DNA of 60,600 nucleotides from a virus: the IMG/VR virus record IMGVR_UViG_3300036791_000464, positions 1 to 60,600 of that record; one strand, written 5' to 3'. The notes beneath the pieces were generated by a model. It ran no database searches, had not been told where the DNA came from, and was given only the letters and a program-made list of their open reading frames with translations. Below are positions 3,301 to 28,010 of the stretch, one piece after another; position 1 is the stretch's first letter, and every line of letters starts with the position of its first letter. Position numbers and translations under genes: made by a program.

Positions 3301-3734
3301 AGCTGAGAGCGGCGCTCTTGGTCGATCTCTCCCGTGTACAACTCGATACCGAAGATCGGTTTGACCCCTGTTTCCTTCGCAGCCTGTTCGAACTTGACAT
3401 GCGACATTACGTTTCCGTGTTCGGTCAGAGCAAGCGCAGATCCATTGAGTTCAGAGATTCGACGGACGTGCGCCTCTGGAAGCTGAAACCCGTCGAGGAA
3501 CGAATACGTCGAATGATGATGGAGGCTGACAAACCTGAGCGGTCTCGTGAGACGAGGATTCCGATGAGTACGCTTGTCCTTCCGAACCATGGCAATGTTA
3601 TCGTCATGGTCGCACTCCTTTCCAAACGCTGGTAGTTTTGCATGATCGGGGGATTCGCCGCGCTCGATCTTCTTGCCGAACGCGGAGAGCTTTGCCTTGC
3701 CTGGACTTTCGCCTCTCTGGATAGGTTCAGCCAT
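330..3734 (-). CDS. dnaE: DNA polymerase III alpha subunit (DnaE-type)
   Basis: A 1134-residue family-C replicative polymerase. An N-terminal PHP domain is visible from about residue 68 (VSLHHHSTYSF, then ALTEHGNV). The palm carries GPARGSAAASLV and the catalytic acidic motif LDLPDIDLDF. A helix-hairpin-helix region (IEGVGPKMAEKI, VKGIGPKTITKL) lies near residue 930. The size matches bacterial DnaE closely. The first 45 residues hold two copies of an RGESPxxAKLxAFGK motif that are not part of the family. The start codon follows the stop of the upstream zinc-ribbon gene immediately, with only a weak AGGTG ribosome site, so the exact N-terminus is uncertain. The protein presumably copies the phage genome together with the primase-MCM protein at 6041-8797. 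I see no clamp gene. Confidence 0.95.
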   Translation of the reverse strand: MAEPIQRGESPGKAKLSAFGKKIERGESPDHAKLPAFGKECDHDDNIAMVRKDKRTHRNPRLTRPLRFVSLHHHSTYSFLDGFQLPEAHVRRISELNGSALALTEHGNVMSHVKFEQAAKETGVKPIFGIELYTGEIDQERRSQLKNHLTILARDQAGYRNILKLVSRSYMEGFYYEPTVSGRMLREHSKGIVVLSGCQGSLLFCSLVGGKGIAPEDASYGRALAVAQRFHRAFGNAYCIEVQAFPELETTRRANPLLARLARETGVPLVATLDCHYTLPTDNELQKVLHSLRSGGKSTPEDLSKSWGYTAELCPPATDRSILNRLVATGLTRQEAINAILMTEELSQDCTVELPKLEMVRYPTRNGKTSTETFRDWLKEGWEYRGCGQLGYRERRRYQERLKYETSIIEEKDFADYFLIVSDAVRFAKDKGIGVGPARGSAAASLVCWLLRITEVNPMLFPHLVFERFIDITRLDLPDIDLDFVSARRGEVVDYLVIKYGRECVNQIGTFGTFKSRLALDDVARVHRIPKYEVEQIKDVLLERSSGDLRASATIEDTIEQFEQAAGVVERYPKIMDATLLEGNVKSFGVHAAGVAISNEPITDITAILERTVQKRSIQVVALDKYDAEYLGVLKIDLLGLSALDALVQMCIMEGKPASFLYEIPIVDEATIEGFKDNDVTGIFQFEGRAMRMVNGSVRPDDFNEVCHVTALARPGPLHNGAVADYVDIKRGEKQPHLRHPALEHITGFTQFQIVYQEQILQIVREIGNFDWTHAAYIRKIISRKLGDQEFNRQWERFWEGARTIHQRTDYPEIDQDLARSIWGDLTTSGSYAFNAAHSVSYGYIAWWTMWFKQHHPGAFYAAMLHRADKKSAGGGGAGGSSNAKATVTSKAKLDGQVIMLRDAIKHDFEILPYDLRESDLTWKREGEMGLRPGFDQIEGVGPKMAEKIVTWRDGVRNWNGVSWSSLISVKGIGPKTITKLVDFATAEDPFGIEKLDNMIASVKADLPRLKLPVPTHTAVEVPWERGDDVEIVWLGVVVHRNLRDIFEVNRARTGEELDPSEVRHPELNEWMLMAGYDGTDLLSIRITRWKYERFKKLLWKIALDEDIVLVRGVKPGWRAAREVYVSDMWVLGV

Positions 3735-3875
3735 TTAGCACCTACACTTCCATATCGCTCGTAGACAACCTTTGCATCGAATAGTGTAACCATCTTCATC
3801 GTAGTTGCCGAGATACGTCGCCCATTTGCCGCATTTGCAGCGAGGCATTACGACAAGAGCAGGATGTTCAGCCAT
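3735..3875 (-). CDS. Small zinc-ribbon protein
   Basis: A 46-residue protein with two CxC/CxxC pairs (CKCGKW and CKGCLRAIWKCRC) that would bind one zinc ion. The start at 3875 is chosen for the GTTAGGAGTAAGG site just upstream. Its stop codon directly abuts the polymerase start codon, so the two are probably translationally coupled. Function unknown. Confidence 0.7.
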   Translation of the reverse strand: MAEHPALVVMPRCKCGKWATYLGNYDEDGYTIRCKGCLRAIWKCRC

Positions 3876-4032
3876 CCTTACTCCTAACGTCTCCGTGAAT
3901 GGCGAGCCAGATATCGAGCCACCCATCCACATCGTCTTCTGTTTTCGGTACCTTTGGAGGATCGCCATACTTCTCCACGAGGTACGCTTCAATCGCTTCG
4001 GATAGAAGCACTGTTTTACTAGGATCATCCAC
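3868..4032 (-). CDS. Small acidic hypothetical protein
   Basis: A 54-residue frame starting at GTG, reading VDDPSKTVLLSEAIEAYLVE and ending near HGDVRSKDG. The amphipathic helical sequence looks like a real protein. It overlaps its neighbours by 8 bp on each side, which suits this tightly packed operon. No ATG is available in this frame, so the call rests on the GTG start and protein-like composition. Confidence 0.55.
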   Translation of the reverse strand: MDDPSKTVLLSEAIEAYLVEKYGDPPKVPKTEDDVDGWLDIWLAIHGDVRSKDG

Positions 4033-25322: not shown

Positions 25323-25367
25323 ACGGGGTTTGTCTTCCCCGCCGCCCCGCCGTAAGGAGGGGGTACC

Positions 25368-25396
25368 ATTATATAGTTATCAAGCTACGATGGGGA
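25368..25396 (-). promoter_or_regulatory. Possible leftward promoter
   Basis: A consensus -10 TATAAT (25368-25373) on the minus strand, 137 bp before the 25231 start codon. The -35 at 17 bases (TCCCCA) is poor, so the call rests on the -10 and the position. Confidence 0.4.
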
Positions 25397-25452
25397 TTTG
25401 CGATTGCCCCGTTCTCATTCCTACCGTTGCCCCGGAGAGCTTGCCGATTTCT

Positions 25453-25707
25453 CTACTCGGTACCGTCCGCCGACGCTAGTTCGGGGGATCGGTCTCTACG
25501 GGCGTGGACGCGACGGGCGAACCATTGAGGATACTCTCCCGGACTCTTGTCTATATCCTTGAGGATTTCTCTATTAGGATCGCCCAAATGCCGCCGTCCC
25601 TCAAGTTGTTGCCTCGCAGCCATACCGGTTACCATCTCCTCGATTCGCTCGTCCGTATCGCGCGCCCGCCGGATCGCTCTCGCGACCCGGCCTCCGCTTT
25701 GTCCCAT
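25453..25707 (-). CDS. Arg-rich hypothetical protein
   Basis: An 84-residue protein (MGQSGGRVARAIRRARDTDE) dominated by Arg, Glu and Ala helices. The start follows AAGGAGCTAG. It is the outermost leftward gene at the putative origin. DNA binding is suggested by charge only. Confidence 0.55.
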   Translation of the reverse strand: MGQSGGRVARAIRRARDTDERIEEMVTGMAARQQLEGRRHLGDPNREILKDIDKSPGEYPQWFARRVHARRDRSPELASADGTE

Positions 25708-25746
25708 TGTCCGTTCTAGCTCCTTGAACGTTGGGCCGGACTCGGA

Positions 25747-25785
25747 TGAGAAAACGAGCGCGACTCATCCTAGCTCGCGCTCGTT
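25747..25785 (-). terminator. Intrinsic terminator
   Basis: Minus strand AACGAGCGCGA pairs perfectly with TCGCGCTCGTT (11 bp) and runs into TTTTC. It lies upstream of the first leftward gene, so it would block or attenuate transcripts entering from the origin region. Confidence 0.7.
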
Positions 25786-25958
25786 CAAATCCCGGATTTT
25801 CAAAGTTCGCCCGCTCCGTCGTCGGCCGCCGGAGCGGGGGACGGGAGCGGCTATCGAGGTACCCCTCTATTCTACCGGAGCGCGGTTGGTGCCGTAGGGT
25901 CGGTTAGGGTGGGAAATAGTTGGGTATTTAGTTGGGGATCTCCTTTTGTTAGTATTTG

Positions 25959-26096: not shown

Positions 26097-26455
26097 TTGA
26101 GTTGGAGAAAATGGGCGGAACCGGCAAAATTGAGATGGACTTTTGTTTTGAACCTCCTTAGGGACATTCATCGGGTTGTTTTTGCTCAAAAACGTGCTGA
26201 TTTGAGTTGTTAGAACACGTGAAAGTACGCTTGTCTTGAGTTGTGAAACGCTTACAAGATGTTTTGTGTTGAAAAGTAGTTTTTAGGAGATCCTCAACTC
26301 ATGACATCTACAACATGCACCATGTTTTCAGGCTTAGCTTTGAATTGACTTGGGCATGCACCAACACACATGCAACATGCACCAACTTTTTGAGCTTTGT
26401 ATTGAGTTGAGTTGGGTTGAGTTGAATTGTTTTGAGTTGGAACTGTCTTGAGTTG
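26097..26455 (+). repeat. TTGAGTTG iterons
   Basis: Eight exact copies begin at 26097, 26202, 26236, 26402, 26407, 26417, 26432 and 26448. The last five are clustered within 54 bp. Confidence 0.85.
26314..26384 (+). repeat. CATGCACCA repeats
   Basis: Three exact copies at 26314, 26355 and 26376. Confidence 0.85.
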
Positions 26456-26487
26456 GAATGGTTTGAGCGCCGAACAATACAAGCGCG

Positions 26488-26522
26488 CAAGACAATTCCA
26501 AGACAAAACAAGTTCAAGACAA
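26488..26522 (+). repeat. CAAGACAA repeats, inverted relative to the left half
   Basis: Three exact copies at 26488, 26499 and 26515. The reverse complement TTGTCTTG occurs in the left half at 26231. Confidence 0.8.
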
Positions 26523-26673
26523 AACAATTTCAAGTTCAAACAATTCGACCTCAAATCAATCCTAAACTCCCTAACTAAACTCTAAGGCGGCCCTAAGGTT
26601 CGGCGCGCTACGATAGTCGTATCGACTAACGGAAAGGGCGCCCGGCGGATCCGGCGCGCCCGGAAAGGTACTA

Positions 26674-27171
26674 ATCGCTACCTACGACCTCCCTAAGCTA
26701 AAGGCTCTCGCCGCCGCCGAGTACGACCGCGACGCGGCCGACGCCGGTACGACGTTCCCGTACTCTCCTTCGCGCGCGGTCTCCGCTATCGCGAAGAAAA
26801 CGAACCTCCGGAAGCCGTACCTTCGAGGTATCGTCGATCCGATCTACTTCCGGGCGAACGGTCTCGCCGCTCCGCTCGATGTCTCCTCTCGCGCGGCGGA
26901 CGCTGCGCCTACCGTCGCGTCGATCCGCGCGGCCGTCGCGAAGCGTCGCGACGCGGGCGGAACCCTCGGACGGTGGGATACGCTCTCCGCGTCTCTCTCC
27001 GCCGCGCTCGGCCGTCGCGTCTCCGAAGCCGCGACGAAGGGGTACTACGACGCGGCGCGCGGCGAGGGAGCCGCGACGGAGGGAGCGTCGTATACCGGAC
27101 GCGGAACCCGGATCGGCGCGCCGCTCTCGCGCGAAAGCGCGACGGCCGAGGTCGATTCGACGCTCGGCTAG
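26674..27171 (+). CDS. HTH-like protein in a CpA/TpG-free frame, possible ATC start
   Basis: The frame is open from an in-frame stop at 26614 to TAG at 27169. It contains no ATG, GTG or TTG before the conserved-looking part. ATC at 26674 is preceded by GGAAAGGTACTA, close to the AAGGAGGGTACTA before the ATG at 15214, and would give 165 residues (ATYDLPKLKALAAAEYDRD near the start). Two helix-turn-helix-like stretches are visible: SAIAKKTNLRKPYLRGIVDP and RWDTLSASLSAALGRRVSEA. There is no His, Gln, Cys or internal Met, because CpA and TpG are almost absent from the DNA. It could be a regulator binding the adjacent origin, or a non-coding block that merely stays open. Confidence 0.45.
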   Translation: MATYDLPKLKALAAAEYDRDAADAGTTFPYSPSRAVSAIAKKTNLRKPYLRGIVDPIYFRANGLAAPLDVSSRAADAAPTVASIRAAVAKRRDAGGTLGRWDTLSASLSAALGRRVSEAATKGYYDAARGEGAATEGASYTGRGTRIGAPLSRESATAEVDSTLG

Positions 27172-27514
27172 CCGCCCGCCGGAGCGCCCGCCGGAATCCT
27201 CCGGCGGGACTCCGGCGTTGCGGTGCTGGGGTTTTGCACGGCAATCAACTTTCATCCATATCGCACAAACTGCGGCGCCCACAAAAAACCATCGTACCGG
27301 GTCGGGCGCGCCCCTACGCGCGCGAACCTATCGCCAACTACTATATCGCCGCCGCGACCCTCCCCAACCCCTCGCGCGTACGAGTCCGCGCATGCGCCTA
27401 CGGAAACCGTTTCACCGGGTCGGGCGCGCGCGTAAGGGTAGACGCATGCGCGAGCGCGACACCGGAGCAACTATCGGTTGTCGCGGGCGGGCGCGCTATA
27501 GTAGTTCGCGCCTA
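27172..27514. other. GC-rich intergenic stretch
   Basis: About 340 bp with runs of GCGCGC and CCCCAACCCC-like C-rich tracts. A second TATAGT -10-like word lies at 27497 without a matching -35. I see no gene with a ribosome site. Confidence 0.5.
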
Positions 27515-27605: not shown

Positions 27606-28010
27606 ATGCCAAGGACACGCAGAACAACCCCCACCCAGACCACCGCAGCCAAGCAGCCCAGCCAAGAGAACTTACATTACTTGGCAGGAGTCTTTGAGGC
27701 AACAAGGACTCTAGCGGGTGTAAATGTAAACTCTGCTGTCGCCATCTCGCGTTCATCAGACTGGGCCAAGTTCATGGAGCAGACTTTTGGGCAACAGGGT
27801 TCCGCTTCAAGCTTTGTCGGTGGGAAGAGTGGAAGGACTTGGTGGGGTTGGTTCCCAAGTCTTCAAAGACGGCTCGATCTCATCATCATGCTGCAGAAGG
27901 CAGATGTAGCTCGCGCAACAACATCAGATGAGTTCGAGAAGTTCAAGAACCAGATTCAAAAAGCCATCAACAACCAGCAGGTTGATGAGAATCTCCCGGA
28001 TAACGGATGA
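27606..28010 (+). CDS. Hypothetical protein, first rightward gene
   Basis: A 134-residue protein (MPRTRRTTPTQTTAAKQPSQ then a helical core with SSDWAKFMEQTFGQQGSASS). ATG at 27606 follows AAAGGAGAGCAC. The frame stays open far upstream, but only through the non-coding leader and promoter. An intrinsic-type hairpin follows the stop, so it may be expressed as a single-gene transcript. Unrecognised. Confidence 0.75.
   Translation: MPRTRRTTPTQTTAAKQPSQENLHYLAGVFEATRTLAGVNVNSAVAISRSSDWAKFMEQTFGQQGSASSFVGGKSGRTWWGWFPSLQRRLDLIIMLQKADVARATTSDEFEKFKNQIQKAINNQQVDENLPDNG

Follow-up and report, generated by a model that had tools for sequence, protein, structure and literature searches.

A phage gene cassette almost free of CA and TG steps lies beside a TG-repeat array in nine soil phages

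Several described systems bear on the locus reported here. In phage restriction-site avoidance, selection removes the words that an enzyme would attack, and in phage T5 the first-step-transfer (pre-early) DNA is a first-acting segment lacking sites that are tolerated in the remaining genome. Iteron modules (e.g. those of F RepE, P1 RepA, R6K pi, and V. cholerae RctB) combine a direct-repeat array and inverted copies with an adjacent gene for a two-domain DNA-binding protein. TRAP-type RNA arrays are built of NAG repeats with 2-nt spacers, so that triplets recur every 5 nt on one strand. Translation table 11 allows near-cognate start codons (AUU of infC; AUC and AUA), which are rare.

The locus described here contains a gene cassette from which CA and TG are almost completely missing. 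As in restriction-site avoidance, words appear to have been removed by selection, but the word is only 2 bp long, the loss is nearly absolute and restricted to a single cassette, and there is no known enzyme; in T5 the avoided site has six bases. The locus shares with iteron modules the direct array with inverted copies beside a gene with two predicted HTH-like units, TG as the repeat core, and a skew switch nearby, but differs in having no Rep fold or sequence match, a 5-bp TG pitch, and a dinucleotide void in the gene. Unlike TRAP arrays the repeat is WTG and not (G/U)AG, there is no TRAP-like protein, and avoidance in the gene affects both strands. We know of nothing that explains a local two-letter ban of this kind, and literature searches found no comparable dinucleotide avoidance in phages.

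The window, the whole stretch of DNA analysed, is a complete virus record of 60,600 bp (IMG/VR IMGVR_UViG_3300036791_000464) and is regarded as a circular assembly because of its 127-bp exact terminal repeat. Genes of the left arm point leftwards and include a DNA polymerase III alpha subunit, an MCM-like helicase with a Toprim-like stretch, an SNF2 helicase, and a nuclease; those of the right arm point rightwards and include TerL, portal, and virion genes. The CA/TG-free block sits in the ~2.5-kb gap between these divergent arms. The cumulative GC skew has its minimum at 25830, although this is also expected from the divergent gene orientation alone. The product of the first right-arm gene (27606–28010) is small and conserved, carries a degenerate LAGLIDADG-like YLAG motif, and has no Pfam match above the cut-off; homologues are present in the relatives L008 (6758–7123), L014 (6272–6637), and L030 (7109–7459). 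The features of the gap are:

25330–25810, minus strand: conserved structured RNA candidate (covariation), partly CA/TG-depleted, left of the array
26231–26465, plus strand: array of 12 partly overlapping (D)TG-NN-(D)TG-NN-(D)TG sites, consensus WTGNNWTGANWTG (motif search)
26475–26557, unstranded: CA-rich arm with inverted triplet-motif copies (motif search), abutting the void
26558–27218, unstranded: CA/TG-free cassette (the void; 3 TG, 0 CA) with leader or upstream hairpin, probable promoter, ribosome binding site, gene, and terminator-like hairpin
26609–26614, plus strand: candidate -10 box TACGAT of a putative promoter
26662–26668, plus strand: Shine-Dalgarno-like GGAAAGG, 5 nt before ATC (sequence)
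26674–27171, plus strand: gene for a 165-aa protein, ATC start, no His, Gln, Cys, or Met; conserved in nine phages, with two predicted three-helix HTH-like units and a disordered tail
27187–27208, plus strand: terminator-like hairpin CCCGCCGGAATCCTCCGGCGGG (sequence) at the right edge of the void
27206–27214, plus strand: GGGACTCCG motif, with the only GGGACTCC in the window
27236–27300, plus strand: C/A-rich flank right of the void (sequence), lacking the 5-bp periodicity seen in the left array

An initial annotation of this DNA had reported a CA-free, almost TG-free and CpG-rich block, an observation that is correct and too modest. There is no CA in the 680 bp from 26558 to 27237, the next longest such run in the window being 324 bp and close by, and the only TG before 27219 are at 26880, 26904, and 26974. 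The rest of the window has 42.6±8.9 CA per 680 bp (minimum 10) and 83 CA plus TG per 660 bp (minimum 37), against 3 in the void, and the cassette composition is sharply unlike that of the remainder of the phage; CpG and TpA are both enriched (odds 1.67 and 1.73). The block is not specific to the open reading frame and spans leader to terminator, from a left edge ~80–125 bp upstream of the start codon to a right edge formed by the terminator and the GGGACTCC motif; in L014 and L030, with ~150 nt 3′ regions, it still extends to the terminator. The CA/TG fraction is 0–0.07 from -100 to +500, compared with 0.4–0.9 in most windows from -700 to -200, and the ratio of CA plus TG to all YR steps per 300 bp is 0–0.01 in complete blocks and at least 0.19 in control loci. 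Partial depletion continues into neighbouring non-coding DNA, including the structured-RNA zone and the right flank. As a phenomenon the void is secure; its mechanism we infer.

Nine distinct soil phages carry the locus: the window phage, L008/L010 (99.9% identical over 13.8 kb and counted as one), L013, L014, L015, L025, L029, L030, and L040, in which it is cut by the contig end. A TerL search of IMG/VR identified L008/L010, L013, L014, and L015, a protein profile added L025, L029, and L030, and a conserved DNA word added L040. The eight IMG/VR relatives have a homologue of the gene at the same position with the same void, and gene, void, and array occur together in 9/9 of the phages covering the locus, with gene products 31–67% identical in amino acid sequence to that of L025. 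Chance is excluded by this recurrence in eight independent relatives, none of which carries the gene at normal CA/TG content. No protein homologue was found in GenBank phages, and no relative was confirmed in bacterial or archaeal genomes at the sensitivity used. GenBank TerL relatives (47, 38, and 41% identity) show neither void nor array over the stretches read, and other phages with long TTGAGTTG runs contain simple repeats or are unrelated, and lack the void.

The 165-codon frame without ATG, GTG, or TTG that had been noted at 26674–27171 is a real gene with nine homologues, and its conservation indicates that it is protein-coding with a predicted non-NTG start. Its start region reads GGAAAGG-TACTA-ATC, and the ATC aligns with the ATG or GTG of relatives, with the frame conserved and the Shine-Dalgarno sequence at the proper distance. 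The suggestion that even the start codon had lost its TG also held: the start is ATC in the window phage, ATA in L008, GTG in L014, and ATG in six, each preceded by a Shine-Dalgarno-like sequence. ATC and ATA are apparently used because no NTG codon is free of the banned step. In this they differ from other near-cognate starts, and they offer a natural example of start codons driven by selection and overlooked by gene finders.

The nine proteins align along their length and share conserved motifs (e.g. YYRENGTRAPL and SYTGRGTRAGA). An AF2 model built from the nine sequences (pLDDT 85, and above 90 over most of the length of the HTH-like units) is all-helical, with helices predicted at 3–22, 32–42, and 46–64 and at 76–89, 96–107, and 113–122, followed by the disordered tail. 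The HTH-like segments that had been proposed are thus predicted with high confidence as two three-helix units, but they do not have the Rep-type winged-helix form; profile HMM searches of the translated frame gave no known family (Pfam, PHROGs), and there was no family or fold match with PDB sequences or Foldseek using two AF2 models.

The nine cassettes with their untranslated regions (5,889 bp) retain 26 CA/TG, corresponding to eight Trp codons, seven start codons, one start junction, and 10 unforced exceptions. The unforced exceptions are strand-symmetric (5 CA and 5 TG), which fits a double-stranded DNA step. Five of the 10 lie in GCWGC (GCAGC/GCTGC; window 26904, L014 5396, L030 6242, and two sites in L040), and some of these are common to related phages. 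Codons ending in Y show a C:T ratio of 0:38 before A in the cassettes and 737:253 in other window genes, and of 399:3 before G compared with 1108:575, counts to which L030, read out of frame, contributes only few codons, leaving the conclusion unaffected. When amino acids are kept and codons drawn from the other genes, 161 CA and 187 TG are expected and 2 and 17 observed. This null and the codon-junction rule indicate a constraint on nucleic acid, and because the void spans leader, probable promoter, and terminator as well as the gene, the ban is best understood as acting on DNA, in agreement with the initial proposal that DNA and not protein is the target. The depletion exceeds that attributable to composition and coding constraint and is local to the cassette, not genome-wide, and word avoidance in a broad sense remains the best description.

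Codon usage suggests how the steps were lost. His, Gln, and Cys are absent, and GCA, CCA, ACA, TCA, CTG, and TTG are practically unused. CA was apparently removed by C-to-T changes before a fixed A or by A-to-G changes in the GCA/CCA/ACA/TCA families, and TG by T-to-C or G-to-C changes (CTG to CTC, GTG to GTC). No one substitution dominates, and both kinds of transition as well as transversions appear to have been used, whichever was synonymous. Because these repairs are mixed, synonymous, and include transversions, they point to selection against the step and not to a mutator.

TACGNT/TACCCT is present in 6/9 leaders, a number reached by none of 300 dinucleotide shuffles. Since this -10-like box lies downstream of the left edge of the void, non-transcribed DNA is probably included in the void. 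At the right edge, GGGACTCC is found in 8/8 genomes covering it and is possibly a binding, cos, or end site.

TG is concentrated immediately to the left. Pairs of TG 5 bp apart occur at 3.6 times expectation in the left flank and those 10 bp apart at 2.2 times, compared with 0.8 times for 5 bp in other DNA. The array unit is WTG-NN-WTG-AN-WTG, of which TG every 5 bp is the strongest shared content; there are 78 same-strand copies in nine 650-bp flanks and 4 in 143 kb of other DNA, and as the search pattern fixes the TGs, the informative parts are the W and A preferences and the enrichment. All nine genomes have 6–12 direct copies of the triplet motif upstream of the gene, and in 8/9 the interval from the direct array to the void contains inverted copies of 2–3 triplets; in L014 they are further off.

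If one step is banned almost absolutely from one gene, and the ban is conserved, the cell must contain something that reads it, and being read must cost enough to have cleared the gene of three amino acids and, in two phages, of its NTG start codon. We tentatively propose, at somewhat less than an even chance, that the array is the nucleation point of a factor that reads TG steps, perhaps encoded by the gene itself, and that the cassette has to be shielded from this factor. A single DNA-binding factor of this type would account for the dense array and the void alike: it would nucleate on the array and spread or load cooperatively along DNA offering TG/CA contacts, and each CA/TG within the cassette would give it a foothold from which to invade, silence, or open the gene. 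Foremost among the candidates would be the cassette's own small protein with its two predicted HTH-like units; given the resemblance of the layout to iteron modules, this protein may serve as a replication initiator of the iteron-binding type and as an autoregulator, at the point where transcription diverges and GC skew switches. Three points are thereby inferred: array and void have one reader in common, this reader is encoded by the gene, and the site serves as an origin or control centre. In wider terms this could represent a virus-coded regulatory or immunity principle, conceivable though somewhat doubtful, in which a factor reads CA/TG, using the 5-bp-pitch arrays for nucleation, and a master gene is made invisible by losing every such step from both strands, start codon included. 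Such a ban on each single CA/TG is stricter than most DNA-binding proteins need, although small costs per site would suffice if the effective population is large. The putative reader is without a recognisable family or fold match, and its action neither predicts the GCWGC context of half of the unforced exceptions nor obviously explains why the structured-RNA zone and right flank are partly depleted. Once identified, the reader would bring to light a way of binding DNA at two-base resolution or, alternatively, a defence or modification system whose target is extremely frequent.

The latter is the main rival, and we consider it rather unlikely: the cassette would evade an enzyme that cuts or modifies CA/TG, be it a nuclease of host defence or a frequent cutter or modifier that the phage encodes and whose mark blocks transcription, such that the gene is expressible when other DNA cannot be, and it could encode a protective or take-over factor. 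The void covers a complete expression unit, as suits a gene that must work alone, and the strand symmetry of the exceptions fits a double-strand target. Restriction-site loss is known in phages, e.g. T7-like phages nearly without EcoRI/EcoRV sites (PMC8594841), but known site avoidance concerns words of 4–6 bp and is genome-wide. Here the rest of the genome, including the adjoining TG-dense array, is normal or high in CA/TG, and although a modification or cleavage system had been suggested at the outset, the window genes that were scanned with Pfam and PHROGs include no recognisable modification enzyme or frequent cutter. Less likely again, and improbable in our judgement, is avoidance at the RNA level, with a transcript that must lack CA/UG because of RNase cleavage or pairing with the flanks, which are rich in UG and CA. 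In several genomes, including L014 and L030 with their extended 3′ regions, the void ends on the right at the terminator, and the cassette transcript of the window phage is unusually structured (z = -3.4). However, CA and TG would be unrelated sites in one RNA strand, yet their exceptions are symmetric; the likely -10 box is within the void; and the neighbouring structured RNA keeps CA/UG mainly unpaired (f 0.36 unpaired, 0.16 paired), a distribution that argues against RNase cleavage as a general explanation.

A local mutational process that destroys CA/TG, such as deamination linked to replication or transcription, is highly improbable. It would suit the near-total loss across 660 bp including the leader and the enrichment of both TA and CG, but the substitution route is always the synonymous one, Trp and most start codons keep TG, and the edges are sharp beside CA/TG-dense DNA. 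Horizontal import from a genome with such a bias, or an assembly artefact, is scarcely credible; the sharp contrast in composition with the rest of the phage is in its favour, but the same gene, order, and void are found at the same locus with the same neighbours and normal surroundings in nine diverged phages from many independent metagenomes, which refutes an artefact, and searches of GenBank phages and of the genome collection gave no match at the sensitivity used. The mutational and import explanations raised in the initial annotation are therefore unsupported. Other candidates were rejected. Six-frame avoidance of start codons gives the antisense half no plausible cost, and forced NTG is tolerated at Trp codons; DNA free of primase sites or RNAP pauses is too weak an explanation or involves the wrong dinucleotides; gyrase T|G sites and Chi-like flank orientation fit loosely and predict no absolute ban; and for injected-first DNA as in T5 there is no evidence of genome ends here, the contig breaks near the locus differing among phages.

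The region at 25330–25810 upstream of the left arm is probably a new structured non-coding RNA of ~480 nt, as judged from covariation, and has no Rfam match. The predicted structure has 75 pairs, 34 with compensatory change, and 86% of cells are paired compared with 40–52% when slid by 1–3 columns, a comparison biased towards the unslid state, since the five sequences compared also served to derive the structure. Homologues are present in L013 (4745–5410), L015 (3405–3960), L025 (3745–4175), and L040 (1080–1580). In L014 the CA-free state also extends over 320 bp of this zone (3570–3889), and a near-invariant CCGTAAGGAGGGGGTACC word marks the left end of the structured region in the window (~25340–25390) and its homologues.
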